Origin: Melastoma dodecandrum
Taxonomy: Eukaryota; Streptophyta; Magnoliopsida; Myrtales; Melastomataceae
Reading direction: 5' to 3'
DNA length: 64,000 bases
NCBI GenBank assembly: GCA_029817715.1
Contig: JARUPY010000434.1
Coordinates: 2,232,001-2,296,000, forward strand
Of the stretch, positions 3,595 to 46,599 are shown in pieces. The position numbers and the translations under genes are program-made. The notes beneath the pieces were generated by a model, which was not told the origin of the DNA, made no database searches, and worked only from the letters and a program-made list of their open reading frames with translations. The first letter of the stretch is position 1. The number at the start of each line of letters is the position of its first letter.

Positions 3595-3760
3595 AGGTTC
3601 TGTTAAATTTGGAGACAATCCCAAAGTCATATCTTTGATATAGAACGTATTGAAAGTCCTGACTCCATGGTTATAGACGAGGTTTTATTGATTACAGAAA
3701 AATCCTTAATTGAACTTTAATACTAATTCACCCCCTTGAAGTGTAACCAAATGACCAACA
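3595..3760 (+). mobile_element. Decayed Copia-type LTR, second part (3' end)
   Basis: The sequence ACTAATTCACCCCCTT followed by ...GACCAACA at 3760 matches the terminal layout of the SIRE-like LTRs at 24241 and 28500 in this window (CTAATTC...GGCCAACA). It is read as the continuation of the LTR seen at 1-710, split by the insertion at 711-3594. Confidence 0.4.
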
Positions 3761-4323
3761 CTTCAATCATGATGTTATCAATTGTCAAAAGTCAGGGATT
3801 TAGTATTTGAAAGGTTGTGGCAGATTATTGTACATATCCAACACTTAGGACATGAGAACACTGAGAAAGCAACCGTTTGGTAAAACAACCCAGGAGCAGA
3901 AGACACTTGTATCGCTTGATGAGACATTAAAAGAAATGGAAGACGATATTTGGGTGTTAGCCGAGGTCGTGTGATGCGACTGGGATTGGCCTTAGTGTGG
4001 TCCTATTAGAATAAAAGGATCTAGTTACGTTTTTAAGCGAGGAACTTAGAAATGCAAGATGTAAGTAGACTTCATACAATAAGAATTTCTACACAATTGT
4101 GACGGAACTAAAATATGGGAGCATTCCTTAATTGGGAAAGTGTTCGTGTTGAAGGGATGTTTTGAATGGACATCAGAGTATCGTTCCACTATAGTATGGT
4201 AAGAAAGTTATACATTGTTATGTTGTATACTTTTTTACGCTTATTTTGAATCACATCAGAAGAAAGTTGTATGTTGATATGTTCTCATTGAAATGTAGAA
4301 CAATGTTTTTATCTATATCACCG
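3761..4323. other. Unassigned intergenic DNA
   Basis: No open frame, repeat or RNA gene is recognised. It lies between the Copia LTR end and the PMD pseudogene and may be decayed 5' sequence of that gene. Confidence 0.3.
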
Positions 4324-9605: not shown

Positions 9606-10999
9606 TGATAACTCTCTATAAGTAGAGTTATTTCATATTCTAAATAATTTTTTATATGGTTAGTCATGCGAGTTTTGATGGGATTTTAATAGGTTCTAGG
9701 TGATTTCAATATTTTTTTTTTTAGTTTTAAGTCGGTATTTGTTATCTTTATCATTTTTAAGTATATTTCGTGGTGAAGAGCGTGTTCTTGTTGATGCCTC
9801 TTGGTAAGTGTTGATTTGGCGTAGGAGAACAAGTTTAAACTCAAAGTTTGGGTAAACCGAAACAAAATGGTCGAAATTAGACAGAGTACAAAAAGATGTG
9901 TCCTTGGTTAATCTGATGAACAAAAGATGCATGCGTCTCGAAAGACGTGACCTCTAGCGATTGATCTAAAAGAAAATATCATCAATTAGTTACTCGTTTT
10001 AGTCCTTTATGTGATTTTATTTTATTTTATTTATTTTATTATTTTATATCATATTAGATTTAGAGAATATCATGTATTCTTTTTCGAAAACAATATATCT
10101 TTTAAGTGTAACCCTAGGTAGCTAGTTTTTTGGGAAGACAATTGATCAAGAGACGGAGAAGGAGGTGACAGCTAGGGTTCAAAAGAAGATCCAGACGAGG
10201 CTACTGGTTCCCAAAACAGAAGATCAGGAGGGCATTTCTCTTCTTCTTGTCCCTTCCTTTCTATTGTCGTTGTCATTTTCTCTTAACTTGGATTGATAGT
10301 TATATTTATATATGAACTAATTTTATTTTCTAGGCCTTTAATGAAACCCAACATTTTAGTTTAATGAGTGAATTCCGTTTTTCGTTTTAATCGAATTCGT
10401 GTATTTATTTATTCATATCTTGATCATAATGCGGCTAACTGATTGGCTACCGAATGATTTGATTTGGAAACTTATTCAAGCTTGGAAAAGTTATTTACGT
10501 TAAGCCGTGGATTGGATAATACAAGTTAGCGTCATGTTGGAAAACGGAGCTAATCCGTGAGAAGGATAAGAATATATCGGATCACCTTAAGTAGTCATTT
10601 AGGTTGACACATAATGGGTTCCTACTAGTAAATTGCTTAGGAATAGATTGAGTAGCTCAATACATGGAATACGTCCTTAGAGCACTCGATAGAGTTGTAA
10701 GGAGATAATCAGACCCTAGGTTAATAATTGAGAATTCAATGTCCGGAGAGAGAATGAACGAGTTGATTAATTCGTTAGGGGAATTATCGTTGATTGAATT
10801 ATCATTTTATCTTTAGGTTTTATTTTCTATTTCATCCTCATTCCATCGTTGTTGACTTGATCTCGCTTTAGTTAGTCACGTGACTATTAGGAAAATTTCT
10901 CTACTAATTCTATGTGGGAACGACTTCACTTGCCCTATCATCAAGTTAGTTAGGTTTTTTAAAATATTTTATGTTTATCACATTCGACAAGCATGATAA
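9606..10999 (+). repeat. 5' LTR of the outer Athila element
   Basis: Starts TGATAACTCTCTATAAGTAGAG and ends ...TTCGACAAGCATGATAA. It is homologous along its length to the reverse complements of 29776-31235 and 39365-40809, and to the + strand pieces at 48985-49640 and 53955-54058. It is more diverged from the - strand LTRs than those are from each other. No primer-binding site follows; LTR sequence joins gag directly, so the leader is deleted. Confidence 0.85.
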
Positions 11000-11974
11000 T
11001 ATTTTTCAACCTCGAAGTACGGAAAATCTACCTTTTGACCCTAAGATCAAAAGGACTTTTCATAGACTGGTTCGTGAACAACAAGCTAATATAAACGAAA
11101 ATCTCATTCAGGGGCAACAAAATGAGGTGCAGCTAAATATTGATAACAAACCGATGGTAAATTCACTTCTGCAAAACTACAATTCAACCAGTCATGTATT
11201 GTCACACCTGCAATCTAAACTGAGGACCATGAGATAAAAACATCGGTTCAAAATTCAGTGATTTTCGAGGGTCGCCAAGTTAGTACCCACATGAGAACTT
11301 GAGCAAGTTCTTGAGTATTTGTGAAAGCCTCGAGAAGAATGGAGTGCCCCGTGATGCGGTCCAATTGAAGTTATTCCCCTTCTCTTTGAAGGAAAGAGCA
11401 TAGAATTGGTTGAATTCTTTGTCGACGGGATCGATTACAACTTGCTAGTAGATGAAAGAAACATTCTTAGACCAACACTTTCCACAGTCAATGATAATGC
11501 ATATGAGAAATGAAATCACTACCTTCAAGCAACATGAGCCGGTGACTTTCGTGGAGGCTTGGGCATGTTTCAAAAATTTGATAATCCAAGCGCAGATATT
11601 AGCGTTATCCAAGAAGTTCGAGACGATGAATGATCATTATATTCAATGTACATCAAGGGGTTGTAATATTTGCGGCAGTGGACACTTAATAGATCAATTT
11701 CCTGCCCGTACGGAGGAAGCCAACTTTCTAAGATATCAAATGAAAAACCCCTACTCCAACACCTATAATCCGGGGTAGAGGAACCATCCAAACTTCTCAT
11801 GGAAAGGGCAACACACGGTGGACACTAGAGCCACACAACCTCCGAGATTTCAGCAACCCAAACCGCCAGAACCAGAAATGACGTCGAGTTTTGAGGAGCT
11901 AAAAATGAAATACATTGCAAATAAGGACATCTTGATTAAGAATTAGGACGCCATGATTAAGAATCAAGCCATTT
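11000..11974 (+). pseudogene. Athila gag, N-terminal part (broken)
   Basis: Capsid-type gag of the Athila family, homologous to the - strand gag at 38111-39235: TENLPFDPKIKRTFHRLVRE near the start, then NGVPRDAVQLKLFPFSLKE and MRNEITTFKQHEPVTFVEAW. About 85 residues are deleted after FKNLIIQ compared with the - strand copy. The zinc knuckle reads CNICGSGHLIDQF, so its last cysteine is lost. Stops interrupt the frame. The 3' end (NPYSNTYNPG, NHPNFSWKG, KMKYIANKD, IKNQ) is the segment amplified in the downstream array. Confidence 0.85.
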
Positions 11975-14900
11975 TGTTGATATGGTTTTGATAATGAGTC
12001 GTAGATTAGGTTGACCTGTTATGACCATACAGAAGATGAGTTGATCGTTACACAAGCTTGCTAGCAATTACATTCTGTAACTAAGATATATTTTTTAAAA
12101 AACAAAAATATCACAAAAATATTTTTCTCCATCCTCTAATGATCATTGAGATCAAATTATGTGATTAGAAAAAAATTCATAATTAGATATATTAATAATT
12201 AATTAATCAATAAATTAAAATTTTCTTAATTATCTTATTAATTGAAATGAAGAATATTTCTTGGAATATTATTTGAACTAATATAAATTTATTTTCTCGA
12301 AAGACAAATCATAAAAAGTTCAAAATATGAAAATTTCCTATTAACCCTCTGTGAGGAGATAATGTTAATAAGGAATGTCCCACGATCATACAAATTTGAA
12401 TTACATCCAGATTCATTGATTAACTTGTGTGAGATGAATAAATTTAATTTGGAAATAAGCTATTGATTATTTCAATTAATATGAGACCAATGATATGACT
12501 AGACTGGTCGATGAATAAATAAAAGGAGCAACCCCTACTCCAGAACCTATAATCCGGGGTGGAGGAACCATCCAAACTTCTCCTGGAAAGGGCAACAAGA
12601 AGTGGACACTCGAGCCACACAACCTCCAAGATTTCAACTTCCCAAACAAGTGGAATAGGAAAGGAAGTCGAGTTTTGATAAGCTAATGATGAAATACGTG
12701 GCAAATAAGGATACCATGATTAAGAATTAGGACGACATGACAAAGAATCAAGTTGCTTTGTTGATGTGGTTTTGATAATGATCGTAGAGCATGTTGACAT
12801 GTTATGACCTTAAAAAAGCTAAGCTGACTACCTAACATTCAGCAACTAAGATATACCTCCTAAAATAGAAAAATACTACATATTTTCTACATCTTCTAAT
12901 AATCATTTGATATCAAATTATATAACTAAAAAATAATTCCACAATTAGATATTTTAATAATCAATTATCTATAATTAATCATTAATTATCTTATTAATAC
13001 AAATGAAGAATATTCCTTTGACAATAATTTGAAGTAATATAAACTTATTGTCTGGTAAGACAAACCATAAACAGTAGAAAATGATATATTTCAACTATTT
13101 ACAGATATTATTTTGTTAAATATTGAAACTTCCTCTTAACCCTTCGTAAGGAGATAATGTTAATAAGAAATGTCCCACAATCATACAAATTTGAATTACA
13201 TCCGGATTCATTTATTAACTTGTGTTAGATGAATAAATTTGATTTGGAAATACATCATTGATTATTTGCATCAATATGAGGTCAATGATATGACTAGACT
13301 GAATTTTTTCTAATGCTCTATCTTAGGATTAAAATAGCCAATTGACATGAAATCTATGTTGGATAGTCCCTAACGGATATATGCACTATTTCAAGACATG
13401 AAGGAACCCAACTTTCTAAGAAAAAACGGAACTACCCCTAATCCAACACCTATAATCCGAGGTGGAGGAACCATCCAAATTTCTCTTGAAAAAGACTACA
13501 AGTAGTGGACACTCGAGCCGGACAACCTCCGAGATTTCAACAACCCAAATCACTTGAATAGAAAAAGTGGTTGAGTTTTGAGAAGCTAATGATGAAAAAT
13601 GTGGCAAATAAGGACATCATGATTAAGAATTAGGACGACATAAGAATCATGTTGGTTTGTAGATATGGTTTTGATGATGAGTCGTAGAGCATGTTGACAT
13701 GCTATGACCTTACAAAAGCTGAGCTGACTGCTATAGAATCCTACTAGCAGTAACATTCTGTAATTAAGATGTACTACATGACTAGAAAAATATCACAAAA
13801 ATATTTTTTACATCCTCCAATGATCATTTTAGATCAAATTATATAACTAAAAAATATTTTCATAATTAGATATTTTAATAATCAATTATCTATCAATTAG
13901 TTATTAATTATCTTATTAATTCAAATGAAGAATATTCCTTTGACAATAATTTGAATTAATATAAACTTATTATTTGGTAATACAAACTATAAAAAGTAGA
14001 AAATAATATATTTTACCTATTTACGGAAATTATGTTGTTAAATATTGAAATTTCCAATTAACCCTCCGTAACGAGATAATGCTAATAAGAAATGTCCCAC
14101 AATCATACAAATTTGAATTACATCCAGATTCATTTATTAACTTGTGTGAGATGAATAAATTTGATTTGGAAATACATCATTTATTATTTGCATCAATATG
14201 AGGTCAATGTTATGACTAGACTGAATTTTTTATAGTGTTCTATCTTAGGATTAAAATAGCCAATTGACATGAAATCTATGTTGGATTGTCCCTAACGGAT
14301 ATACGTACTATTTCAAGACATGGAGGACGCCAACGTTCTAAGAAATAAAAGGAACAACCCCTACTCCAACACCTATAATCCGAGATGGAGGAACCATCTA
14401 AACTTCTCTTGAAAAGGGCAACAAGCAGTGGACACTCGAGCCGCACAATTTCCGAGATTTTAAAAACCCAAACCACTGGAATAGGAAAAGGGGTCGAGTT
14501 TTGAGAACCTAATGATGAAATACATGACAAATAAGGACATCATGATTCAGAATTAGGACGACATGATTTATAATCAAGTTGCTTCGTTGATATGATTTTG
14601 GTGATGAGTTATAGAGCATCTTGACATGCTATGACTTAACAAAAGCTAAGCTGACTGTTATAGAATCCTGATAGCAGTAACATTTAGTAACTAAGATATA
14701 CTACCTAACATAGAAAAATATCACCAAAATATTTTCTACATCCTCTAATGATCATTTGAGATTAAATTATATAATAAAAAAATATTTCCATACGGAGATA
14801 TTTTAATAATCAATTACCTATCAATTGATTATTAATTATATCATTAATTCAAATGAAGAATATTCCTTTGACAATAATTTGAAGTAATATAATCTTATTG

Positions 14901-15572
14901 TCTGGTAAGACAAACCATAAAAAGTAGAAAATGATATATTTTATCTATTTACGGAAATTATATCGTTAAATATTGAAATTTCCTATTAACCCTTCGTAAG
15001 GAGATAATGTTAATAAGAAATGTACCACAATCATACGAATTTGAATTACATCTGGATTCATTTATTAGCTTGTGTGAGATTATTTGCTTTAATATGAGGT
15101 CGATGATATGACTAGACTGAATTTTTTGTATTGCTATATCTTAGGATTAAAAAATCCAATTGATATGAAATCTATTTTGGATAGTCCCTAACGGGTATAT
15201 GCAAAGACCTGGAGGATGCCAACTTTCTAAGAAATAAAAGGAATAACCCCTACTCCAACGCCTATAATTTGGGGTGGAGGAACCATCCAAACTTCTCTTG
15301 GAAAGGGCAACAAGCAGTGGACACTCGAGTCGCACAACCTCCGAGATTTCAGCAACCCAAACCACTGGAATAGGAAAAGAGGTCGAGTTTTGAGATGCTA
15401 ATGATAAAATACGTGGCAAATAAGGACATCATGATTAAGAATTACGACGACATTATTAAGAATCAAATTGCTTTGTTGATATGGTCTTGATGATGAGTCG
15501 TAGAGCATTTTGACATGCTTTGACCTTACAAAAGCTAAAGTGACTGTTATGGAATCCTGACATCAATAACAT

Positions 15573-15577
15573 TCAAC
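15573..15577. other. Target-site duplication of the 740-bp insertion, left
   Basis: TCAAC directly precedes the TG at 15578 and recurs exactly at 16318-16322 on the far side. Confidence 0.65.
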
Positions 15578-16317
15578 TGTCACGAGGACGAGACATGCCT
15601 CGATATTTTCTTGGCCCTGGCGCTGTCGTAACTTCCCCAGAGGTACTACCAGCCATCACGCTCGGATACCCCTTAGTCACGCCCGTACTCGCTCACAGTG
15701 TTTGATTTCGTACTCTCGTGTATCGCTCACGCTCACACTCAAGGATCCTTGTAAGGACAAGGGACACAAAGAACGCAAGGATTTTTTCCAAGGCACAGAT
15801 TGTATTTCCACTCAATCTTACAATGTGTCTTGCTAACGCTCCTTTACATCTCTTATTTATAGGCGACATGAGGCATGCATGCTACTTGCAAATGTACATC
15901 ATGCAACCAACTCCGACCTACAAGAGCATACCAAGGGTTGCCTGCACCCAGCTAATTCGTCAGAGGAAGAAGCTCCAGGGTCGCCTGCCGCAGCGTCAGA
16001 GGAAGCTCTAGGGTCGCCTACCGCAGCATCTTGCTGATCATGTCAGACCTGCCCCAACATATATCTATCCCAAGTAGGCGAATATCTAGCTTCCTTTGTC
16101 ACCGATGACCAGCTTGCTCGTGACTCTCTCACGAGCTCTACCTAGGGAACCGTCCTGGGCGTGCCTTGCCTAGCACTCATCCACGTGTGCTCACAAACCT
16201 CCCCAACCAGAGGAAGTCGACGCCCTCGTCGGTGCCTTGCTGAGGTGCTCTTGCACCTCATCCTCGAACTGCCACAGGGTGTTCGCTTTCTCCCAAGCGG
16301 CATCTGCCGCCTCCTTC
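15578..16317 (-). mobile_element. Solo LTR inserted in the array (candidate)
   Basis: A GC-richer 740-bp block interrupts the fifth array unit and is bounded by the exact direct repeat TCAAC. On the - strand it ends ...TCTCGTGACA, a proper CA terminus. It carries a TATA-like CCTATAAATAAGAG (near 15851-15864) followed by transcript-start-like sequence, which suggests - strand orientation. The other terminus does not show a clean TG. No coding homology is seen; the small + strand frame at 15718-16011 has no recognisable product. Superfamily unknown. Confidence 0.55.
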
Positions 16318-16322
16318 TCAAC
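16318..16322. other. Target-site duplication of the 740-bp insertion, right
   Basis: TCAAC, identical to 15573-15577. Array sequence resumes immediately (TAAGATACAC). Confidence 0.65.
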
Positions 16323-19300
16323 TAAGATACACTAACAAAAATAGAAAAACATCACGACAATATTTTCTACATCCTCTAATGATCATATGAGATCAAATTA
16401 TATAATTAAGAAATATTTTCATAATTGGATATTTTAATAATCAATGATCTATTAATTAATTATTAATTATCCTCTTAATTCAAATGAAGAATATTCCTAT
16501 GACAATAATCTGAATTAATATTATTATTTAGTAAGTCAAACCATAAAAAGTAGAAAATAATATACTTAACCTATTTACGGAAATTATATTGTTAAATAAT
16601 GAAATTTCCTATTAACTCCCGGTAAGGAGAAAATGTTAATAAGAAATCTCCCACAATCATACAAATTTGAATTACATCCAGATTCATTTATTAACTTGTG
16701 TAAGATGAATAAATTTTATTTGGGAAATAACTCATTGATTATTTCCATTAATATGAGATCATTGATATGATAAGACTGAATCGTTTGTAGTGATCTATCT
16801 TAGGCTTAAAATATCCAATTGAAATGAAATCTATTTTGGATAGTCCACAGCGGATGTAAGGAGCTAATGATGAAATACGCGACAAATAAGGACATCATGA
16901 TTAGGAATTAGGACGACATGATTAAGAATCAAGTTGCAGCGTTGATATGGTTCTAAAGATGTGTCGTAGAGCATGTTGACAACCTATGACCTTACAAAAG
17001 CTAAGCTGACTGTTATAGAGTCCCGACGGCAGTAACATTGTGTAACTAAGATATACTACCTAAAATAGAAAAATGTCAGGCAAATATATTCTACGCCCTC
17101 TAATGATCATTTGAGATCAAATTATATAATTAAAAAATATTTCCATAATTAGATATTTTAATAATCAATTATATATCAATTAATTATTAATTATCTTATT
17201 AATTCAAAAAATAGAATATTCATTTGCCAATAATTTTAATTAATATAAACTTATTATCTGGTAAGACAAACCATAAAAGTAGAAACTAATATATTTTACA
17301 TATTGATGGAAATTATATTGTTGAATATTGAAATTTCCTATTAACCCTCCACAAGGAGATAATATTAATAAGAAATGTCCCACAATCACACAAATTTGAA
17401 TTACATCTAGATTCATTTATTAACTTGTATGAGATGAGTAAATTTAATTTGGAAATAAATCATTGAATATTTCCATTAATATGAGGTTGTTGATATGATT
17501 AGACTGAATTTTTTGTAGTGCTCTATCTTTGGATTAAAATATCGAATTGACATGAAATCTATTTTGGATAGTCCCTAACAGGTATATGCACTATTTCAAG
17601 ATATGGAGGACGCCGACTTTCTATGAAATAAAAGGAACAACCCCTACTCCAGCACTTATAATCCGGGGTGGAGGAACCATCCAAACATCTCTTAAAAAGG
17701 GCAACAAGTAGTGGACACTCGAGCGGCACAAGCTCCGAGATTTTAGCAACCCAAACCAACGGAATAAGAAAAGAGGTCGAGTCTTGAGAAGCTAATGATG
17801 AAATATATGGCAAATAAGGATATCATGATTAAGAATTAGGACGACATAATTAAGAATCAAGTTGCTTCATTGACATGGTTTTACTGATGAGTTGTAGAGC
17901 ATGTTGACATGCTATGACCTTACAAAAGTTGCGCTAACTTTTATAGAATCCTGAGAGCAGAAATATTCTATAACTGAGATATATTTGCTAAAATAGAAAA
18001 ACATTACGAACATATTTTCTACATCCTCTAATGGTCATTTGAGATCAAATTGTACTATTTAAAAATATTTTCATAATTAGATATTTTAATAATCAATTAT
18101 CTATCAATTAATTATTAAATATCTTATTAATTCAAATGAAGAATATTCCAGTGACAATAATTTGAATTAATACAAACTTATTATTGGGTACGGAAATTAT
18201 ATTGTTTAATATTGAAATTTCCTATTAACCCTCCTTAAGGAGATAATGTCAATAAGAAATGTCACACAATCACACAATTTTTATGAATTATTTAGAGATT
18301 CAATTATTCACTTGTGTGAAATGAAAAAATTTAATTTAGAAATAAATCATAGATTATTTCCATTAATATGAGGTCGATGGCCTGAAGAGGATAAATCTTT
18401 TGTAGTGCTCTATCTTATGTTTAAAATATCTAATGGACATGAAATCTATTTTGGATAGTCCCTGATGGATGTATGCTCCATTTCAAGACATGGAGGATGC
18501 CAAATTTCTAAGAATTAAAAGCAACAACCCCTACTCCAACATCTATAATTCGGGGTGGAGGGACCATCCACACTTCTTTTGAAAAGGGTAACAAGAAGGG
18601 GACACTCGAGCCTCACAACCTCCGAGATTTCGACAACCCAAACCACTGGAACAGGAAAAGACGTCGAGTTTTGAGAAGTTAATGATGAAATACGTGGCAA
18701 ATAAGTACATCATGATTAAGAATTAGGACGACATGATTAAGAATCAAGTTGATTTGTTGATATGATTTTAATGATGAGTCGTAGAGCATGTTGATATGCT
18801 ATGACCTTCAAAAGTTGAGTTGACGGTTATAGAATCCTGACTGTAGTAACATTCAGTAACTAAGATATACTACCTAAAATAGATGAATATCACGAAAATA
18901 TTTTCTACATCCTCTTATGATCATTTGTGATCAAATTATATAATTAAAAAATACTTTCATAATTAGATATTTTAATAATCAATTATCTTATAATTATTTA
19001 TTAATTATCTTATTATTTCAAATGAAGATTTTTCCTTCGACAATAATTTGAATTATTATAAACTTATTATCTGATAAGACAAATCATAAAAAGTAGAAAA
19101 TAATATATTTTACCTATTTACAGAAATTATAATGTTTAATATTGAAATTTCCTATTAACCCTCTGTAAGGTGATAATGTTAATAAGAATTGTCACACAAT
19201 CACTCAAATTGTATGAATTATGTAGAGATTCAATTACTAACTTGTGTGAGATAAATAAATTTAATTTGCAAATAAATCATTAATTATTTCCATTAATATG

Positions 19301-20605
19301 AGGTCGATGATCTTACTAGACTAAATCTTTTGTAGTGGTCTATCTTAGGATTAAAATATCCAATTGACATTAAATCTATTTTGGATAGTCCCTAACAGAT
19401 GTATGCACTATTAAAAGACATGGAGGAAGCCGACTTTCTAAGACATAAAATGAACAACCCCTACACCAGCACCTATAATCCGAGGTGGAGGAACCATCCA
19501 AACTTCTCTTGAAAAGGGAAATAAGCAATGGACACTCGAGCCACACAACCTCCGTGGTTTCAGCAACCCAAACCACTAGAATAGGAAAAGAGGTCGAGTT
19601 TTGAGAAGCTAATGATGAAATAGTGGCAAATAAGGACATCTTGATTAAGAATTAGGATAACATGATTAAGAATCGAGTTGCCTCGTTGATATGGCTTTGA
19701 TGATAAGTTGTAGAGCGGGTTGACATGCTATGACCTTACAAAAGTTGAGCCGACTGTTATAGAATCTTGATAGCAGTAACATTTTGTAACTAAGGTATAC
19801 TACCTAAAATAGAAAATTTTCACGAAAATATTTTCTACATCTTCTAATGATTATTTGAGATCAAATTATATAATTAAACGTATTTTCATAATTACATATT
19901 TTAATAATCAATTATCTATAAATTAAGTATTTGTTATCTTATTAATTTAAATGAAGAATATTCCTTTCACAATAATTTGAATTAATATAAACTTATTATA
20001 TGTTAAGACGAGCCATAAATAGTAGAAAATAATATATTTTACCTATTTACGGAAATTATCTTGTTAAATATTGAAATTTCCTGTTAACCCTCCTCAAGGA
20101 GATAACGTTTATAAAAAATGTGCCACAATCATACAAATTTTAATTATATCGAGATTCATTTATTAACTTGTGTGAGATGAGTAAATTTAATTTGAAAATA
20201 AATCATCGATTATTTGCATTAATATGAGGTCGATGATCTTACTAGACTGAATCTTTTGTACTGCTCCATCTTAAGATTAACATATCCAATTGACATGAAA
20301 TATATTTTGGATAGTCCATAACGGATATAAACACTATTTCAATACATGGAGGAAGCCAACTTTCTAAGAAATCAAAGGAACAACCCCTACTCCAACACTT
20401 ATAATCCAGTGTGGAAGAACCATCCAAACTTCTCTTGAAAAGGGTAACAAGTAGTTGACACTCGAGCCGCACAACCTCCGAGATTTTAGCAACCCAAACC
20501 ACTGGAATAGGAAAAGAGGTCGAGTTTTGAGAAGCTAATGATGAAATGCGTAGCAAATAAGGACATCATGATTAGGAATTAGGACGACATGATTAAGAGT
20601 CAAGT

Positions 20606-20610
20606 TGCTT
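20606..20610. other. Target-site duplication of the SIRE-like element, left
   Basis: TGCTT in Athila gag precedes the LTR start. The partner at 28501-28505 is TGTTT (4 of 5 identical). Gag reading continues across the element (IKNQ... to SIRNFENQ), which supports this as the insertion point. Confidence 0.6.
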
Positions 20611-21529
20611 TGTTGATATGATTTTAATGATAACTCGTAGAGCATGTTCACATGCTATGACCTTATAAAAGCTGAGCTGACTATTATAGAATCATCACAG
20701 TAGTAACATTTTGTAACTAAGATATGCTACCTAAACTAGAAAAATATCAAGAAATATTTTTCTACATCCTCTAATGATCATGTGAAATCAAATTATATAA
20801 TTAAAAAGTGTTGCTACAAATTGTATGAATTATATAGAGATTTAATTATTAACTTGTCTGAAATGAATAAAATATCAAAATAACATTAAATCAATTTTGG
20901 ATTGTCCCTAACGGATATATACGCTATTTTATGAAAAGATTTCTCAAGTTTGAAATTAAATGTCATTATTTTCCAACTATGAAAGGTCATTGATCTAATC
21001 TGTTCCCAACCTTCAATAATGTGTTATGTTGGGATTGGAGAATCAGATTGATACGAAATCAATCGGAGATTTTTTCCAATTTATTCATGAAATAAGAATG
21101 CATCTGGTTGCATTTTTTTTAAGTAAAATAAAATTCCTTAATAAGAGTAGTAAAAGCTATTATAAAAATGAAAACATAAAATAGTGAAGTGTCGGTTGGT
21201 AAGGGTGTTATTGCTGATGTTATTGTTGTTAGGTGTTTAGGTGGTAACATGTGTGTTGAGTGTGCAACAAAGGTGACTATAATAGGTTCTCGCGTCGATG
21301 AAGCCGCTACGTAACCGCTGGAGATTACGGATCCGAGGGACTCTACCGAAACATTGTCTATATACTCGGACTACGTGCAAGAGGGCCTAAGGAGAAGGTT
21401 GTTGATTGGCGAGTCGACGTACGGATTTGGTCAGAGAGGAGAAGTCTGTAGCAAGCGTAAGCTGTCAGAGATTGACAACCTTATGTAGTTATTGTGTTTG
21501 CAGTAGGTGTGCCATGGTGAAGGTACTCC

Positions 21530-22024
21530 CGTTTACACCAAATAATTTTGGGCCGTCGATTGTGATTTGAGTAGAGCTCAATCGACGAATAAAATCCAAT
21601 TTAGTCGATGATCGATTAAGAGAATCTACGACTAAAATCTAATTTTGTCAATGATCGACTGAGACAATCTAACTCAATCGATGGTGGATTCTCCCCGTCG
21701 ATGGAAAAAATATGATTTTATAGATAATCTTGTAGATAAGATTTACAAGTGAAGATCAGAACGAAAATGTGAACCGTCATTGAAGATTCTCTATAAGTAG
21801 AAGACAGACGAGAAGATCATCAACACACGGTCAGACACTTTTGTCTTTATCTTAGTTTTAGAATAGAATCTCTAGGCATCTTTAGGACATCCCATGTAAT
21901 ATATTCAGCATTCATCAATGGAGTTCTTTTCTTTCCCCGCTTTCTCTTCTTTTTCTTTTTCTTTTTGAACCCAATGGGTTAGCCACGATTTGATCGCGAC
22001 CTGTGGTGGTTTAATTCGCAAACA
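21530..22024 (+). repeat. 5' LTR of the TRIM-like element
   Basis: 495 bp. It pairs with 22904-23521 and contains CTCTATAAGTAGAAGACAG as the likely promoter region. Its first base is C where the partner has T (TGTTTACACC). Confidence 0.7.
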
Positions 22025-22903
22025 CGTTTTTGGTGCCTTGAACTTGAAATGAACTACAGCGCGAATGAAAAATTCGTTGAGAAATTTGTTTGATAGCCTG
22101 ACCAAGAATCGGCCGAGGCTTTGAAAATTGCCCACTGTGAGTCGGATGTGCGAATATCTATAAAGACTGTCCTTCGACATATAACGGAGTGCCTGGATAA
22201 ATTGCCTCGGGACTTAGAAAATTTGCGTCACATTCAGATGCATATTCATACAAGATCCTTACAAATGGTCGTGAATGATCAACAAGTGCATGATGCTATA
22301 AGAATCAAGTCAACAGAAAGTAATCCAAAATTATAGTCAAGTGAATTCGTCATGTCATTCAAAAGTGTAAAAACGCATGTTTCCGGTAAAATCCCAGAAA
22401 TGATTGTTAAGGGTGATCGAGTAGTGTGCGACGCTCCGAAAATACTATTGACTAAAACCGTTACACTATTCAGAAATATTGATTATGAATTGACGTATGA
22501 CAATTTGGTTTATTGACAAGGAACAATAATTTCCTTGAAAGGTAGTGGTTTTGGACCACCTACATTAGTTTTTAAGTTATCATCGTCATTGTTTTTTTGA
22601 ATGCTATCGTAATAAAAGAGAATCGATTGATTGATATTTGAAGATTCTAAGTCGATTATTTTCTTATATTTATAAAATGTTCTCTGTGTGACTCGACGGG
22701 AGAACAAATCTTTCTAGTCGATTGACTAGGGGAGAAAATCTTTCCAATGAGAGAAAAATCTACTGTCTTCCAAGAAATCTGATGGTCGCATGTTCGATCA
22801 ACCTGGCAAAATCGAACATAAAAAATGTTCGTCGATTGAGATTTTTGACCGTAAGATTTTGATTAATTAAGAGAATCTCATCATTAATTGTCGTGCGGGC
22901 AAA

Positions 22904-23521
22904 TGTTTACACCAAATAATTTTGGACCGTCGATTGTGATTTCAGTAGAGCACAATCAACGAATAAAGTTTGATTCAGTCGATGATCGATTGGGAGAATC
23001 TATGAATAAAATCTGATTTTGTCAGACAGAGAGAATCTAACTCAAGGATTCTCCCATGGAAAAAATCTAACCGTCGATGGAGGATTCTCTCCGTCGATGG
23101 AAAAAATCTAATCCAGTCTCGGATTCTCCGATGGAGAAAATCTAATAGAGGATTCCCCTAGTAGATGGAGAAAATCTGATGACGGGGAAAATCCAAGTCT
23201 CGATGGAGGATTCGCCAAGTCGATGGAGGGAATTGATGGAGGATTCTCTCCGAAGATGGAAAAAATCTGATTTTGTGGATAATCTTGTAGATAAGATTTT
23301 ACAGGTGAAGATCAGAATGAAAAACGTGAACCATCGTTGAAGATTCTCTATAAATAGAAGACAGACGAGAAGATCATCAACACATAGTCAGACACATAGT
23401 TTCAGATTTCATCAATGGAAATCTTTTCTTTCCCCTCTTTCTCTAATTTTTCTTTTTCTTTTTGAATCCAATGGGTTCGCCATGATTTGATGGCGACTTG
23501 TGGTGGTTTAATTTGCAAACA
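22904..23521 (+). repeat. 3' LTR of the TRIM-like element, with minisatellite
   Basis: 618 bp, longer than its partner because of extra degenerate copies of a GTCGATGGAGGATTCTC / GATGGAGAAAATCT motif at about 23040-23275. The 5' LTR carries this motif essentially once, near 21680. Confidence 0.7.
23040..23275 (+). repeat. Minisatellite with GATGGA(A/G)AAAATCT core
   Basis: Seven or so imperfect copies of GTCGATGGA...GGATTCTC / GGAAAAAATCT follow each other at irregular 25-40-bp spacing within one LTR of the TRIM-like element. Confidence 0.65.
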
Positions 23522-24241
23522 TCTCTGTAGGCGTCGGTGGCTACGGATCTGAAGGACTTGGCCGGGAACTAGTCCGTAACGTGGAGATGCGTGTAGTAGG
23601 ACCTGGGGAGAAAGTTGCCGGCTGGCTAGTCGACGTACAGCAAGTCCAAAAGAAGGAGTTCGTAGCAGGCATAAGTGGTGAAGGACTGGTAACCTCCTGT
23701 GGACTTTTATCTTTTCGTTTTGCAGGTTATATAGAAAATACAAAAAGAGAACCCTCATTAGACAATGTCCGACATGTGGAGGATAGCACCAATGAGCTTG
23801 ACCCCCGATCCATAGAAAGGACACTCCGCTTCGTAGTCATAGAAGGTCGAAACTTCCAGTCATGGTTTTGTACTCACTTTGTCTGGTTGATTTCCTTGTG
23901 ATTCGACCTAGACAAAACCAAATCTCAGTAGGAGAGTTTCTTATATTGGTTAATTTAATCTTACCGATCCGTGGTTAAATAAATTAGTTTCTTACATCAC
24001 AAAAGGTTTTACCTTCTACAGTGTAACCACTATTTCCAAGTATTAGTGTAAACGGGTGAAAGTGGATGTAGGCGTATTTGTCGAACCACTATAAAACATT
24101 GTGTTCTGATTTATTTTTATGCTCCTGTAAATCACGGAAGTTAAGTTTTCCGCTGTGAGGATTATGTGAGTTTGACGCGAAAGTTCTATTTAAACAGAAA
24201 GACTAATTCACTCTCTCTTAGTCACAATCAAAGGGCCAACA

Positions 24242-26554
24242 TGTTTCAATTGTGTCCATCTTAGAAGCTTTAGCTGAATAGTAGGAGGAACCCCTATTTC
24301 GGAGGAACCCCTTACACAAAAGGAGATTCCGGAGGAAGCTGCTACTGATGATGATGCGGCCATTGATCATGTGCTGGAGGATGATAAGGTGGGTGATCAG
24401 GTTCTGGAGGACGAAAACCCTCTAGCTGCTGATGAGGAAGAGGTGCTGAAGGGCGACCCCGTCACTTTCGTCCCACAACCTTCTGTCTCACCTGACCCCA
24501 AGTTGAAAGGAAGGGCTGCTACACGAACTACATCTACAGAAATCAATCCTCTTATGGCTTCTAGGAGTGTATCCACAAGGACACACCTGAAAAGAAAAAG
24601 CCCTAAGATGTTGGCAAGTCCATGGAGCAAGAGGTCATGAAAAAAACTAAAGCTTCCAATGATAGCACTGCTCAGGTAACGTCTGCTACATCCTGCGTGG
24701 AGATAGAGCGAGTTGTGAATCCGTAAATTGTGCTTCCCAGTGATGTTGTTAGTTGGCAAATCGCCGCAAGTAAGCGCATAGATTTTGGTTGGTTTACTGC
24801 TCGTGATATAGATATCACACCCATATATGAGACGCTGGACTTGAAAGAGTTTTGTGAGGCTTATATTCAGGTTGTTGTAGTCAGGATCTATGAGTTCTAC
24901 GAGAACCTCACCAGTTATAGGGTTAAACACTTTGTTAAGCATGTCAAGACTATGGTTGATGGTATAACTCTGGTATACTCCGTCAACAAGGTCAACACGA
25001 TGTTTGCTTGCAAGGAGCATGCTCCATTTACTATGCCTGACAAGAACAGGTCCTACAGCGTGATACTTGGATCCAAAGTGAAGCTGCCACAGTACTTTGA
25101 GTCTGCTACTCTTGACTTACGGAAGCAGATCCTTCATCTTTTAGTGATCTCTTGCTTTCTTCCACAAACCGGGAACCTGGACACGGTCACTCCAAGGGAT
25201 GCTCAAATCATAGAGCACCTCCTGACAGGAACATTGTTCAATCTGGAAGCATTGATTTTTGGCCATATGGAAGCTTGCGTGAAAGCCAAGGATAAAGCTT
25301 TTTCACATCATGGAGCACCTCCTGACAGGAACATTGTTCAATCGTGAAATTGATGCAATCCCTCTAATGCGCCTAAAAAGTGGGATATTGGTACATTAGG
25401 AGTTAGATCATATCCAACATGCAATATGTGAGGAGTTCGAGTGGCTAGGTGCTGAAGTCAAAGGCCAAGGAGGCTCGCCAGAAGGAAGTTCCCGCTCCTT
25501 CTGAGATGAAAGGGAAAGTTGTTGTAACAGCACCTGCTGTTAAAGCAACTGCTATGAAAGCATATGTTGTTAAAGCAACTGTGTGAAGACACCTGTTGTT
25601 CCAATACCTACTGCCTCAGATCGCCCTCAAGAATGTTCTACCTCCTCGTCCCTGCCCTCACTCAGCAAGGACCTTGTTGTTAAAGCAACTGTTGTGAAAG
25701 CACCTACTGTTCAAGTCTCTCCTGCGTCTGATCGCCCTTGAGAAGGTTCTACCTCCTCGTCTCTGCCTTCACTCATCAAGGACCTGCAACGGCAAGTTGC
25801 TACACAAATTGAAGAGATTCAGGTCCTTAAAAAGATGGTCACGGGGTTGGTTCACACTGTTGCACGCCAGGAGAAGCTCCAGCGTGACAATCTTGAGGCG
25901 CCTCCTATGGAGTAATGCCTTCTATTTTTTCGTTTATCAGTACCTACGACTAGATCCTGTAGGAGTTTAATGGTCTTGCTATGGTTTTGATGTAATAAGT
26001 GTCATATAAACATGCAGTCCCCATTTTTGGATGACCTATTTCAACTTTCAACAGTTTTGATTTATCCTCTACTTGCTATTTGTGTATTACTTCTATAGAA
26101 TGCTACTTCTTTGTTTCTATCTCCTACTCATTTTGATATGACAAAAAGGGGAAGATATTATGGAAATATTATGAGAAATATGAAGTAACGATTAAGGGGG
26201 AGATTTAAAGAGATATAGCCCAAGTTGATTCTCAAAAATCTCAAGAATTCTTGAATATTTAGTGGGATAGAAGGTTCATCCACTATGTGGTGTATCAACC
26301 TTCTAATAGAGAACGCAAAATTTGAGTACAACTCGTTTTTGTTACGAGTGCAAAAGTACATGCTACTGTCGAGCTAAATATACAGGTGCCTTGTCCATGT
26401 AATCTGTTCAAGCTATATGTTTATACAGAAGTTTTTGCATTCTGCGAAAGTACAAACTCTTTCCTTCCCTACCTTAGGGGAGCTTGGTTTATCATCTTTG
26501 CATTAACATATCTCGTATGGATAATTATTTTGTCATTACCAAAAATGGGGAAAT
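24242..26554 (+). pseudogene. Host-like ORF of the SIRE-like element (broken), putative plant transposon protein domain
   Basis: An acidic region (24290-24637: EEPLTQKEIPEEAATDDDA onward) is followed, after a frameshift and a TAA at 24724, by an open frame at 24730-25344. Its layout is SKRIDFGWFTARDIDITPIY, then VVVVRIYEFYENL, then LHLLVISCFLPQTGNLDTVT. This resembles the 'putative plant transposon protein' domain (Pfam Transposase_32 type) found in non-autonomous LTR elements and in the 3' ORF of Athila. Downstream are Val-Lys-Ala-rich repeats (25500-25720) and a short coiled coil (DLQRQVATQIEEIQVLKKMV) ending at 25914. A 31-bp exact repeat (25213-25243 and 25313-25343) precedes the stop. 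No pol genes are present. The family call is by pattern only. Confidence 0.5.
26541..26554 (+). other. Polypurine tract of the SIRE-like element (candidate)
   Basis: AAAAATGGGGAAAT directly precedes the first base homologous to the LTR start, as expected for plus-strand priming. Confidence 0.55.
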
Positions 26555-28500
26555 TTTTAATATGATTTTGATGATGAGTCGTAGAGAAGGTTGACCTGCT
26601 AAGACGTTACATATGCTAAGTTCACCGATACAGAGGCCTGACAGCAGTAACCTCCAATAACTAAGATCTACTTCCTAAAATTGGAGAAATAACAAGAAAA
26701 TATTTTCTACATCTTCTAATGAACGTTTGAGATCAAATTATGTGATTAGAAAATATTTACATAATTAGATATTTTAATAATTATTATTAGTTATCTTATG
26801 AAGAATATTCATATGAATATTTATTATCTAGATAAGAAAAACCATAAAAAGTCGAAAATAATATGTTTGTTCTATTTACGAAAATTATATTGTTAAATAT
26901 GAAAATTTCCTATCAACCCTCTGTGAGAAGATAATATTAATATGAAACATCCTACATTCATACAAATTGTATGAATTACATCGAGATTCAATTATTAAGT
27001 TGTCTAAGAAGAATAAATTTAATTTGGAAATAAATCATTGATTATTTCCATTAATAAGAGGTTGATCATCCGATTAGGTCGAACCTCCAATAGTGCTCTA
27101 TCTTGACATTAAAATATGCAATTGACAATAAATAAATTTTGGGTAGTCCCTCACAGATATATGTGCTATTTCATGATAAGATTTCTCAAGTTGAAAATTA
27201 AATATCATTTCTTTCCAACTACAGATAGTCATTGATCTAATCGCTCCCTAACCTTCTATATTGTGTTATCCTGGAATTGGAGAATCTAATTGATATGAAA
27301 TCAATTAGAGATCATCACCGATTGATTCATGCATTATGAGAATGCATCTGGTCACATTTGTTTTTTAGTAAAATAAAATTCCTTAATAAGAGTAGGTGAA
27401 AGCTAGTATAAAAATGAAAACGTAAAACAATTAAGAGTCGGATTCTAAGGGTGTTGTTGTTGTTAGGTGTTGAGGTGATAAGGTGTGCGTTGAGTGTGCT
27501 GGACGGAGTCTCCCAGCAAGCGTTCTCGCAGGATGTGACTACAACATGTTTTGCATCGGTGAAGCCGCTCCGTAGACGTTGGTGGTTACAGATCTGAGGG
27601 ACTTGACTGGAACAATATCCGTGACGTTGGATTGCGTGCAACCAGGCCTGGGGAGAAGAGTTGTTGGTCCGCGAGTCGGCATACAGAGTTGGTCGGAGAG
27701 AAAGAGTCCTTAGCAGGCGTAAGCGATCAGGGACTAACAACTTTCTGTAGTCATTTAACTTGTTGTTTGTGCAGTGTGTCTGTCTTGGTGAAGTCACTCC
27801 ATAGGCGTGGGTGACTATGGATCTGAAGGACTTGGCAAGGAAGTTATCCGTAATGCCGAGTTGCATGCATCAGGACTAAGGGAGAAGGTTGCTGACTGGC
27901 GATTCGATGTACAACAGGGTTAAGAGAAAGAGTCCGTAGCAAGCACAAGTGATAAGGCATTGGTACCTGTAGACGTTTATCTTTTTGTTTTGCAGGTTAT
28001 ATAGAAAATACAAAAAGCGAAGCCCATTTGACGACGTCTAATCACAAGGATGATAGCACCGCTGAGCCTGATCCCACATCCATTAAAAGGATAACGCACT
28101 ATTGAGTCACAAAAAGCTGAACCTTCTAGCAAGTGTTCTATACTCATTTTGTCTGGCCGATTTCCTTGTGATTCGACCTGGACGTGACCAAATCTCAGCA
28201 AGAGAGTTTCTGGTACTGGTTAAGTTAATCTTACTGCTTTGTGGTTAAAAAAATTGTTTTCTTATACTACACAAGGTTCTACCTTCTATACAATGATCAC
28301 TATTTTCAAGTATTAGTGAAAACGGGTGAAAGTGGATGGAGGCGTATTTTGCCCAACCACTATAAAAACATTGTGTTCCGATTTATCTTTAAGCTCTTGT
28401 AAATCACAGAATTGTGAGGTTTCTGTGAGTTTGTCATGAAAATTCTATTTGAACAAAAAGACTAATTCGCCCCCTCTTTGTCACAATCAAAGGGCCAACA
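26555..28500 (+). repeat. 3' LTR of the SIRE-like element
   Basis: 1946 bp. Its first bases are TTTTAATATG instead of TGTTGATATG. It contains an imperfect tandem duplication of about 228 bp (copies starting near 27558 and 27786: GGTGAAG(C/T)C(G/A)CTCC.TAG.CGT). It ends GGGCCAACA and is followed directly by Athila gag (ATTAGAAACTTCGAGAATCA). Confidence 0.8.
27558..27970 (+). repeat. Tandem duplication of about 228 bp in the SIRE-like LTR
   Basis: Two diverged copies contain GGTGAAG, GGATCTGA.GGACTTG, ATCCGT.A.G, GGGAGAAG and GTCCGTAGCA(A/G)GC landmarks in the same order. The same pair is present in the 5' LTR (from about 21290 and 21513), so the duplication predates or accompanied the element. 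Confidence 0.65.
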
Positions 28501-28505
28501 TGTTT
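28501..28505. other. Target-site duplication of the SIRE-like element, right
   Basis: TGTTT, partner of TGCTT at 20606-20610 with one substitution. Confidence 0.55.
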
Positions 28506-29775
28506 CAATTAGAAACTTCGAGAATCAATTCAGTCAGCTCGCTCATGCATTGAACTTGCAACAACATGGAGGGTTTCTGAGTGATACTGAGATTAATCCA
28601 CGAGAGCATGTGAAGGCCATAACCTTCAAGAGCAATAGGGCGCTTGTAGAAGTGCCATCAAAGAGCCATTTGAGTGACACAACCAAGACGAAGGGGATCA
28701 ATCGTCATCGAGAAGAACTGAACAATGAAGGGATGAAAACATCCATGCCAGACGGAGGAATTGACCATGAAATTCAAAAATCTCACATAACTGCAGAGGC
28801 GTATCCTCTAAATTTGAAGGATACAAGCTTCTACATTTTGTGGATGAAATAGCGTACAATGACACATCCGACATTTCTGAAGGACATGTCCTTCCCACGA
28901 CAAACCAATCTACCATTCATTCAAGTAAAACCTTTAATTCATTGAAGCAATCTAAGGTGAGTCTAGGATCTAACATGGAGAAACAAGACCGACCACCACA
29001 TCCATTCCCTCAAAGAGCTCGGAAGCACGATGAAGCCCAATTCCGTAAGTTTCTTGATGTGTTTAAAAACCTTCGTATTAACATTCCCTTTGTTGAGGCT
29101 CTTGAGCATATACCGAACTACTTCAAGTTCATGAAAGATGCATTGTCGAGGAACTGAAGTCTAGGTGAGTTTAAAACCATTGCACTGACGGAGGAGTGTA
29201 GTGTCATATTGCAACAAAACATTAAAGCTAAAGGATCTAAGTCGCTTCACTATCCCATGCACTAATAGGTCTCAATTCAATGGTAAGGCATTATGTCATC
29301 TTGGTGCAAGTATCAATCTCATGCCCTTATCCATATACAAGGACTTAGGTCTAGGGGAGGTTAAACCTACATTTGCAACATTAAAGTAAGCTAACAGATC
29401 AATAACTTATCCTAGGGCTATTATTGAAGATGTTCATGCTAAAGTGGATAAGTTTATTTTTTTTTCGCAGATTTTGTATTTTTAGACTTTGAGGAAGATG
29501 ATGATTTCCATATCACTATAGGGAGGCCATTATTGGCTATAGGTAGAGCCCTCAATGGTGTTAAAAAAGGTGAATTAACCATTGGGGTTAACGATTAGGA
29601 GGTAACATTTAACGATTTTAAGTCGATGAAATGACCAAGTGAACCTGTTGAATGACTTTTTATTGATGTTTTAAATAAGTACTCTATCAAAACGCTCTCT
29701 TATGATCCACTCAAAGCTCCATTGAAATTGGCATCATTTGATGATGAAGAATCACAAGAAGCGATAAATTGGTTG
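28506..29775 (+). pseudogene. Outer Athila gag C-terminus and protease (broken)
   Basis: Continues the outer gag after the SIRE-like element: SIRNFENQFSQLAHALNLQQ, SDTEINPREHVKAITF, then FPQRARKHDEAQFRKFLDVF and KALCHLGASINLMPLS. It is homologous to the - strand region 36748-37960. The protease motif that should read CDLGAS is CHLGAS, so the catalytic aspartate is gone. Frameshifts (after 28850 and near 29157) and stops break it. The sequence ends in DDEESQEAINWL just before the nested Athila LTR and resumes at 40810. Confidence 0.85.
28879..28894. repeat. 16-bp perfect palindrome GAAGGACATGTCCTTC
   Basis: Lies in the gag/protease linker of the outer Athila. It belongs to the GGACGCGTCC motif family that recurs in the LTRs, linker and 3' non-coding DNA of the - strand Athila. 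Confidence 0.7.
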
Positions 29776-31235: not shown

Positions 31236-31249
31236 CACCCCCAAACCTA
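31236..31249 (-). other. Polypurine tract of the nested Athila
   Basis: On the - strand TAGGTTTGGGGGTG sits directly before the LTR start TGATAACTC. The identical 14-mer recurs at 32227-32240. Confidence 0.85.
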
Positions 31250-32310: not shown

Positions 32311-32313
32311 GCT

Positions 32314-33430: not shown

Positions 33431-33624
33431 TACTCCTCCAATCCAAAACTAGGAGAACGCAAGGAGTTCACGAGAGCTTACCCGAAATGGCTGAGGAGGT
33501 GTTATTGGCGTTGACAACGTCGGATACTAACAATGGGCGACGTGGGTGGCTTGATTTGAGCCCCGATTTTCGGATAGGTAGTGTTCCTCCAACTCCAACG
33601 ACGGTAACCGCAGACGGGGAGTGA

Positions 33625-33955
33625 GGCGGCTGCACAAAAGAAAAAAAGGTTAGGGTTGTCACTTAAAAACTTATAACTACTTTATATTTATTTTTATTTT
33701 TATTTTTGAAGGACGCGTCCTTCAGATTGGAGGACGTGTCCTCCATGGGTCTGTAGGATTGCAGAATGCCCGAGGTCGCGTCCTTGGCTTTGAGGGACGC
33801 GTCCCTAAACTTTCTGTAAAATAAAAAATGTCAATAAAAAGCAAAATAAAAAGACGAACTTATGCAAAAATAACAATGAAATTGAAAATAAAAATAAACT
33901 CGGGTTGCCACCCGAGAAGCGCTTGATTTATAGTCATCGGCTTGACTTTCTTGTC
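33625..33955 (-). other. Non-coding spacer between integrase and 3' ORF, with GGACGCGTCC motifs
   Basis: No ORF. Contains GGACGCGTCC at 33711-33720 and 33795-33804, plus variants GGACGTGTCC (33732-33741) and GGTCGCGTCC (33774-33783). Confidence 0.65.
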
Positions 33956-33959
33956 GTTT

Positions 33960-39235: not shown

Positions 39236-39336
39236 ACACCTAATATTAAAATATCAAAAGAACAGAGTAAAAAAAATAAAACAAATTGAACGTCAAATAG
39301 ATATACGTGATGACAGTAGAAAAAAATTTCTCAAAA

Positions 39337-39359
39337 TTGATTCCCCCGCAACGGCGCCA
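39337..39359 (-). other. Primer-binding site, tRNA-Asp type
   Basis: On the - strand TGGCGCCGTTGCGGGGG lies five bases inside the 5' LTR end. It differs at one position from the complement of the plant tRNA-Asp(GTC) 3' end (…CCCCGGCAACGGCGCCA), the usual Athila primer. Confidence 0.85.
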
Positions 39360-39364
39360 AAATT

Positions 39365-44790: not shown

Positions 44791-44829
44791 ATTTTGTTAA
44801 TAATTGTTGCGTATACTTTTCTTGAAAAA

Positions 44830-46590: not shown

Positions 46591-46599
46591 GAAGTCCTC

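Follow-up and report, generated by a model that had tools for sequence, protein, structure and literature searches.

A tandem array over the boundary of a nested retrotransposon insertion in Melastoma dodecandrum

Nested retrotransposons at the locus

The window analysed here is a stretch of 64 kb of Melastoma dodecandrum DNA in which nested insertions are common. The left part of the host element (9606..11974, plus strand) comprises an Athila-like 5' LTR region, to about 11005, and gag (11011-11974), ends at the insertion site and is colinear by BLAST with a related minus-strand element at 29776-40809. The related element carries PF03732 (Ty3/Gypsy gag; 38111-39235, minus strand) and PF17917/PF17919 (RT-RNaseH; 35015-35764, minus strand), domains that fit the Athila label given in the first-pass annotation; Athila is thus the putative lineage of the host element. 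The host resumes at 28508..29768 on the plus strand (BLAST 28505-29768 against query positions 2795-4025). In the coordinates of the related element, the gag matches of the array end at 2764-2785 and the post-insertion DNA restarts at 2795, and this colinearity across the inserted element shows that there is one insertion site.

The inserted element consists of a 5' LTR (20611..24248, plus strand) with an insertion of about 2 kb inside it (about 21530-23522), an internal region (24249..26554, plus strand) and a 3' LTR (26555..28507, plus strand), which is present as a single copy and is not amplified. By BLAST, blocks of the 5' LTR on either side of the ~2-kb insertion align with the LTR at 26554-28510. 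The LTRs start with TGTTGATATG (5' LTR) and TTTTAATATG (3' LTR), and both LTR ends have an exact GGGCCAACATGTTTCAATT, while the 3' end of the 5' LTR is ambiguous (24241 or 24248). No clear target-site duplication of the inserted element was found. An LTR end at CCAACA would give a TGCTT/TGTTT duplication (4/5) but leave the occurrence of the same letters behind the 5' LTR without explanation, and an end at TTTCA would give no duplication. In Sireviruses the intervening sequence between the CA of the LTR and the primer-binding site (PBS) is ATTGG, and this arrangement of CA, intervening sequence and PBS suggests that TTTCA may be the true end.

The inserted element had been labelled SIRE-like, and this stands in part: the region of the polypurine tract (PPT) and 3' LTR fits by position, in decayed form, but neither gag-pol nor a PBS was found. 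According to the available part of the source, the Sirevirus octamer AGGGGGAG begins 10 bp upstream of the 3' LTR and is followed by AT/TG (PMC2829016). The terminal PPT of the present element starts at exactly this position (26545) but is decayed to ATGGGGAA (2 mismatches); with the AT that follows, it occupies 26545-26554. A Sirevirus would also carry several PPT copies within about 0.5 kb upstream of the 3' LTR, and two were found, at 26195 (exact) and 26147 (one mismatch), against 0.76 expected for this length at up to one mismatch. Moreover, an inverted repeat borders the terminal PPT with 10/13 positions pairing, counted by eye; its left arm touches the PPT and has the reverse complement TTTTGGTAATGAC, against TTTTGATGATGAG in the 3' LTR. 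A Sirevirus PBS would be TATCAGAGC after the 5' LTR; TGGTATCAGAGC was unmatched near 24250 at up to two mismatches, and the PBS of this element is decayed or deleted. As well, the many palindromic CGG-CCG boxes of Sireviruses were not found, the 3' LTR having one and the 5' LTR region three, two of which (22110 and 23120) lie inside the ~2-kb insertion. Seven of the 23 listed frames, all on the plus strand of the internal region, gave no Copia gag-pol domain and matched only PF20167, in the ORF at 24730-25347, at 40.9 bits and thus below the curated cut-off of 45; the element is therefore called Sirevirus-like and not a member of the Sireviruses. A protein search with this ORF returned none of 175 candidates at E <= 0.001, a comparison with solved structures returned none at E <= 0.1, and an Rfam search found one tRNA and nothing else.

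Anatomy of the tandem array

The gag|LTR insertion junction is present in ten tandem copies from 11,712 to about 20,940, arranged head-to-tail with common order and orientation in 10/10, and one unit (17,867-18,754) used as a BLAST query matched all ten from 11,712 to 20,807. The array begins in the Athila-like gag on the left and passes into the real Sirevirus-like LTR on the right. The repeat unit crosses the left boundary of a single insertion, so that one insertion junction has indeed become the unit, as first proposed. Junctions lie at 11975, 12759, 13658, 14585, 15474, 16940, 17868, 18755, 19684 and 20611, with spacings of 784, 899, 927, 889, 1466, 928, 887, 929 and 927 bp. Seven of the nine spacings (887-929 bp) agree with the earlier description of nine tandem units of mostly 0.89-0.93 kb, and the other two bear a deletion (784 bp) and an insertion of about 745 bp (1,466 bp). 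The reality of the array is supported mainly by six BLAST alignments between the unit and other copies, which are near-full-length (885-932 columns) and 77-82% identical. Tandem Repeats Finder, limited to periods of up to 500, missed the array for that reason.

All copies lie on the plus strand. The first, C1 (11712..12506, junction 11975), has lost its 3' end and is followed by a short, filler-like deletion scar (12507..12514, plus strand) that matches neither side; the same deletion trimmed the start of C2 (12515..13396, junction 12759). C3 (13397..14318, junction 13658) and C4 (14319..15206, junction 14585) follow. C5 (15207..16858, junction 15474) has a deleted 3' end and contains a foreign insertion of about 745 bp (15574..16318, no strand assigned), which is missing from the other copies and flanked by CAACT at 15574-15578 and 16319-16323. 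The gag part of C6 (16859..17601, junction 16940) is mostly deleted, and C7 (17602..18488, junction 17868), C8 (18489..19418, junction 18755) and C9 (19419..20344, junction 19684) come next. C10 (20345..20940, junction 20611) has an internal deletion in its LTR part and runs on into the real 5' LTR, which bears out the reading that the tenth LTR start, at 20611, is that of the inserted element.

The claim that every unit keeps the same junction holds in that ten gag|LTR junctions are present, but the quoted 20-mer occurs exactly only once, the ten junctions differing by 0-4 mismatches. Nine further sites in the window lie within six mismatches of this 20-mer, which is therefore weak evidence when taken alone. 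The second join, from LTR to gag, is kept at six of the nine inter-copy boundaries, trimmed by a small deletion at C4/C5 and erased by later deletions at C1/C2 and C5/C6. At the seven surviving joins, of which six are intact and one is trimmed, the LTR part halts near a common internal point and a common gag segment follows. Units read CTATTTCAAGACATGGAGGA here, in which CTATTTCA(T)GA is attributable to the LTR and CATGGAGGA to gag. A shared ATTTC had been put forward as microhomology at this join; the letters exist in both parents, but they are out of register at the six intact joins, and the suggestion fails. The ATTTC of gag lies upstream of the gag-unit match in another register, and a related gag copy has ATGTTC at that position.

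Both parts of the unit are homologous to transposable elements. Within the window, BLAST of the unit found its LTR part without gag at 26,562-27,176 and its gag part without LTR at 38,258-38,046 on the minus strand, and no composite unit outside the array. Dispersed units, named earlier as the sign of stacked insertions, were thus not seen in this search, and the composite unit is confined to one locus with ten copies in the 64-kb window, for which the terms "macrosatellite" and "birth of a satellite" claim too much. The surviving joins, with their common LTR truncation and host segment, and the colinear host are those of amplification in place and not of separate transposition of the units.

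Divergence and mosaic ancestry of the copies

The eight inner copies (C2-C9) differ by pairwise K2P distances of 0.126-0.187. K2P is 0.243 between the two LTRs of the inserted element, 0.220 between C1 and the inner copies and, on average, 0.154 among the inner copies; the last lies below the other two in 500/500 bootstraps, while the first exceeds the second in only 0.866 of them. From these distances we infer the order insertion (0.24), first duplication (about 0.22) and burst (0.15). The maximum-likelihood tree of C2-C9 is near-star with long tips, the internal length being 4.4%. In simulations that were recombination-free, recombination in itself making trees star-like, an internal length as low as observed arose in 0/60 with duplications over the whole interval, 1/60 with duplications within 0.06-0.11, 44/60 with duplications within 0.07-0.085 and 60/60 with a perfect star. 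The observed value nevertheless exceeds the 95th percentile of the star simulations (0.022), so the copies were not all made at once. Such a tree fits a short burst with no homogenisation afterwards, and the near-star shape together with the mean distance is not that of copies under concerted evolution. The array is old and decayed, with copies about 15% different, two joins deleted and one copy carrying foreign DNA.

The inner copies resemble C10 on the left and C1 further right (p = 0.0012, in a permutation test, designed after the distance tables had been seen, of the spatial segregation of (inner,C10) versus (inner,C1) along the LTR), with the best break near alignment column 499. With the LTR taken as a whole, (inner,C10) is ahead by 9.1 likelihood units. 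Both (inner,C1) and (C1,C10) are rejected by the left LTR part (AU 0.017 and 0.007), and gag rejects (inner,C1) (AU 0.041) and does not reject (C1,C10) (AU 0.384). Taken alone, the right LTR part rejects neither of the other topologies (AU 0.098 and 0.099) over its 46 comparable columns, the number being limited because C10 has lost most of this part, and by itself it is only suggestive of an affinity of the inner copies to C1. Of the 27 polarised shared-derived sites, some of which are based on a majority as low as 3/8, gag and left LTR contain 20 shared with C10 and 4 shared with C1; the corresponding numbers for the right part are 0 and 3 (Fisher p = 0.012). In the right part, a 3-bp gap and columns 758 and 838 are common to C1 and C2-C6; C7 and C8, and C10 where present, retain the 3'-LTR state at these places, and C9 is a fine-scale mosaic. 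A count of C1 versus the 3' LTR made without C10 gave no significant left-right contrast (Fisher p = 0.15, 0.16 and 1.0 in three groupings). Four columns past the halfway point (587-692) still separate C1, so the switch point is uncertain between 499 and about 700. Similarity was not significantly higher between neighbouring copies (Mantel r = 0.29, p = 0.10). As judged from these sequence comparisons, the left-C10/right-C1 mosaic is the pattern that unequal crossing-over would predict.

Origin of the array and its relation to known repeats

The array is probably younger than the insertion: one tandem duplication would have come first, and unequal crossing-over among the copies would then have built up the array; unequal exchange, already proposed in the first-pass annotation, best explains the mosaic pattern beside a colinear host. 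The course would open with the insertion of one Sirevirus-like element into the Athila-like host, which is directly visible at the locus. Soon afterwards, about 0.26 kb of gag and about 0.65 kb of LTR may have been duplicated in an illegitimate, nearly blunt event, which would have left two copies, the putative ancestors of C1 and C10. A misaligned exchange between these ancestors might then have yielded a hybrid founder with gag and left LTR of C10 type and right LTR of C1 type, as the mosaic ancestry suggests, and the near-star tree points to multiplication of this founder in a short burst. The C10-type right parts of C7 and C8 and the mixed C9 imply at least two exchanges, or conversion in addition. 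Since then the copies have diverged without recent homogenisation, gaining the private deletions and the one foreign insertion now observed. Most simply, the array is a by-product of recombination, and we suggest no function for it in the host.

Gene conversion or repair-template switching, in place of crossing-over, might have enlarged the array; the fine-scale mosaic of C9 is in its favour, and conversion was argued for the CRM-derived tandem repeats of maize in the available text of Sharma et al. (2013, PMC3648361). The main signal is, however, one left/right switch and not scattered tracts, with no sign of continuing homogenisation, and we consider this unlikely. Somewhat less probable still is a rolling-circle origin, in which a circle with one hybrid unit, excised by recombination of the first two copies, was replicated and reinserted at the locus. 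It would yield the same hybrid founder and near-star tree, and a one-step insertion of many copies suits a short burst; yet the right parts are sorted by side (C1-type in C2-C6, C10-type in C7 and C8, mixed in C9), as expected of local exchange, and the C10-type right parts of C7 and C8 mean that the inner copies could not come from one circle without later conversion.

The remaining explanations are rejected. Independent insertions of truncated elements stacked at one site would suit a window rich in nested insertions, but at the seven surviving joins neither an LTR end nor an internal region follows the LTR part, which gives way to the gag segment; this anatomy, with one site and a host colinear on both sides, upholds the earlier preference for tandem amplification and leaves stacking hardly any credence. 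Tandem formation during reverse transcription, before insertion, was discussed as possible for rice tandem LTR-retrotransposons in the part of the paper available (PMC11899658). Here the units contain host gag continuous with that of the left flank, which makes it hard to see how the unit could predate the insertion. No free element with this gag fragment was seen in the window, and such an origin is wildly improbable. Tandem arrays are often misassembled; the divergence between inner copies, with the private deletions and private insertion, nonetheless makes an assembly artefact very unlikely, to the point of being negligible.

Tandem repeats derived from transposable elements are already known. 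Closest in form are CRM1TR and CRM4TR of maize (Sharma et al. 2013, PMC3648361), which, as far as the available text goes, share with the present array a similar unit size (CRM1TR averages 696 and 819 nt), a unit that combines a portion of an LTR with the sequence next to it, occurrence in local arrays, later retrotransposon insertions and a growth ascribed to recombination. Their units come wholly from one element (LTR and its own UTR), whereas the present unit enters an unrelated host element, and CRM1TR has 187 full-length monomers at two pericentromeric loci, against ten copies here. Tandem LTR-retrotransposons in plants (Morales-Diaz et al. 2025, PMC11899658) likewise form LTR arrays at one insertion site, but with units of LTR plus internal region from one element; in the portion available, their authors are undecided between tandem insertion and later recombination, and the host sequence in each unit indicates the latter here. 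In the double insertion model (McGurk and Barbash 2018, as relayed in the parts available of PMC12628747 and PMC9659126), an insertion also supplies the first tandem duplicate for unequal exchange, but here there is no second insertion, and the duplicated stretch spans one boundary of one insertion. The Sobo satellite of wild potato has a composite monomer too, with LTR similarity and other genomic DNA, and is far larger (4.7-kb monomer, span of about 360 kb; cited in the excerpts of PMC3648361 and PMC9659126). The "transposon graveyards" of a 2025 review (DNA Res., PMC12628747) are similar in that tandemisation at nested, decaying elements gives monomers of several elements; in the part available, theirs is a scenario and the origin of composite monomers an open question, while the present locus, with flanks and both parents, shows a starting step of this kind and no evidence of spread. 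The literature examined, with subscription papers mostly outside its coverage, showed no junction-spanning unit of two unrelated retrotransposons.

Many satellites contain pieces of several transposons. How they began can usually not be read, since homogenisation and spread remove the traces of the first steps. In the present case both parents, both edges and the unit persist together in 20 kb, and the host sequence inside each unit makes amplification after insertion likely. There is about an even chance that the locus preserves, at the place of origin, the whole birth of a composite tandem repeat, from boundary duplication through a hybrid founder of the first and last copies and one short burst to a stop, with steps datable against the flanking parents. 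An arbitrary stretch over an insertion boundary can become a unit, and no special repeat within one element is needed. The order of duplication, hybrid founder, burst and stasis is testable with related genomes. Even if only a ten-copy curiosity, the array is a clean example of an abortive start, and it preserves, on a small scale, a legible account of the way in which a composite tandem repeat can begin.

Nested elements and the insertion site

The window consists of retrotransposons nested in one another and piled up. Colinear BLAST matches to a minus-strand relative outline an Athila-like Ty3/Gypsy host element on the plus strand (~9,606-49,579), and Ty3/Gypsy gag and RT-RNaseH domains are present in the element homologous to it. 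That relative (29,776-40,809, minus strand), the reference for colinearity, is a further Athila-like element that retains its two LTRs and is nested within this older host. The host gag is interrupted at ~11,975, where a tandem array of gag/LTR junction copies (C1-C10, left to right) starts; at its far end the array merges with the 5' LTR (20,611-24,248, itself interrupted by ~2 kb) of the element inserted into the host. The 3' LTR of this inserted element lies at 26,555-28,507, and BLAST picks up the host again at 28,505. Since the left gag matches on the related element stop at its positions 2764 (C1) to 2785 (four other copies) and the right-hand match begins at 2795, the inserted element occupies one insertion site. 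About 30-50 bp beside the junction fall outside the BLAST matches and contain a 21-bp gag duplication. An exact 19-mer is common to both LTR ends (24233-24251 and 28492-28510) and extends beyond one candidate end into the would-be flank; no clear target-site duplication was found. The ~2-kb insertion within the 5' LTR (21530-23522) has its own direct repeats (21531-22024 and 22905-23521, 74-81%) and is perhaps a small LTR element.

The inserted element carries a decayed Sirevirus-type PPT exactly where expected, two additional PPT-like sites and an inverted repeat; its CGG-CCG boxes are few, no PBS was found, and the scanned frames held no gag-pol, only PF20167 below the cut-off. It was called Sirevirus-like, non-autonomous or deleted. 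A second Sirevirus-like copia element is likely at 42451-48618 (minus strand), with an LTR-like pair (42451-43583 and 47543-48618, K2P 0.246) and a Pol_BBD ORF (46600-47118); the octamer AGGGGGAG occurs without mismatch at minus-strand positions 42800, 43649 and 43868. Elsewhere, a plus-strand ORF at 60261-60878 with an RPC5 domain (RNA polymerase III subunit; PF04801, E = 1.5e-22) is a host gene or a fragment of one, Rfam places a plus-strand tRNA at 49890-49963 (49 bits, gathering 29), and two-copy tandem repeats lie at 41833-42040 (period 105 bp, 93% match) and 25565-25785 (111 bp, 83%).

The repeat unit and its joins

Each unit joins ~0.26 kb of gag, up to the insertion junction, to ~0.65 kb of LTR from there. 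The ten junctions are spaced by 784, 899, 927, 889, 1466, 928, 887, 929 and 927 bp; gag is continuous before C1 and LTR after C10, as tandem duplication of one junction-crossing stretch requires. The first-pass proposal that the junction itself became the repeat unit is upheld. Its suggestion of ATTTC microhomology at the LTR-to-gag join does not hold, the motif being out of register; the join is nearly blunt. Of the nine boundaries, six retain this join, one has it in trimmed form and two have lost it to deletions. The first junction (11965-11974, CAAGCCATTT) is four adjacent transitions from the commonest form, CAAGTTGCTT. The C1/C2 deletion scar (12507-12514) holds filler-like GTCGATGA, resembling the LTR sequence GGTCGATGA of other copies, a pattern expected from template-copying end joining.

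Order of events and a proposed mosaic founder

LTR divergence is K2P 0.267 for the host (562 aligned columns), 0.243 (95% 0.212-0.279) for the inserted element outside the amplified part, and 0.062 for the later element at 29776-40809, an order that agrees with the nesting. The inner copies (C2-C9) differ from C1 by 0.220 (0.192-0.250), from C10 by 0.180 and among themselves by 0.154 (0.140-0.169).

The array probably grew after the insertion, through tandem duplication followed by unequal crossing-over between copies. Mispairing and crossover of two tandem copies would yield a middle copy with the last copy's left and the first copy's right. Across gag and left LTR, 20 derived sites unite the inner copies with C10 and 4 unite them with C1; in the right part the corresponding numbers are 0 and 3. 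AU tests of the left LTR reject both alternatives to (inner,C10) (0.017, 0.007), and that of gag rejects (inner,C1) (0.041) but not (C1,C10) (0.384); in the right LTR (inner,C1) is preferred, the others staying unrejected (0.098, 0.099). Maximum-likelihood trees place C1 outside the remaining copies in the left part (support 96) and C10 in the right (support 72). When the two trees predicted by crossing-over are compared site by site, their likelihood differences segregate along the LTR (p = 0.0012, 20,000 permutations, in a test set up after the distance tables and trees had been inspected), summing to about +14 in bins left of column 520 and about -7 in bins from 720 on. Against a mosaic, a site count made against the 3' LTR without C10 shows no significant left-right difference, and four columns at 587-692 still separate C1; where the switch falls along the LTR is uncertain. 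In a column listing that looked for this split alone, 12 LTR columns divide C1-C6 from C7 and C8, 10 of them at 662-849, with C9 mixed.

Gene conversion or repair-template switching, enlarging the array in place of crossing-over, is an improbable alternative, and a rolling-circle route, in which an excised hybrid unit circle was copied and returned to the locus, is somewhat less probable again; the routes behind these and the preferred crossing-over overlap.

A probable burst, decay and comparison with known repeats

Internal branches make up 4.4% of the length of the maximum-likelihood tree of the eight inner copies. Values this low arose in 0 of 60 simulations with duplications over the last 0.11, in 1 of 60 within 0.06-0.11, in 44 of 60 within 0.07-0.085 and in all 60 star simulations (5-95% range 0.006-0.022), all run without recombination, itself a source of star-like trees. 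The inner copies therefore arose over a short interval, not all at once. Homogenisation among copies after the burst was not found; the array has since decayed through private deletions and a foreign insertion in C5 (15574-16318, ~745 bp), which is GC-richer, is flanked on both sides by CAACT and has no other copy within the window.

The satellite birth originally proposed is not established. Tandem repeats derived from retrotransposons are well known (PMC3648361, PMC9659126); what distinguishes this locus is a composite, boundary-spanning unit whose two parents survive at the site together with the two edges. The locus is an instance of the scenario put forward in PMC12628747.
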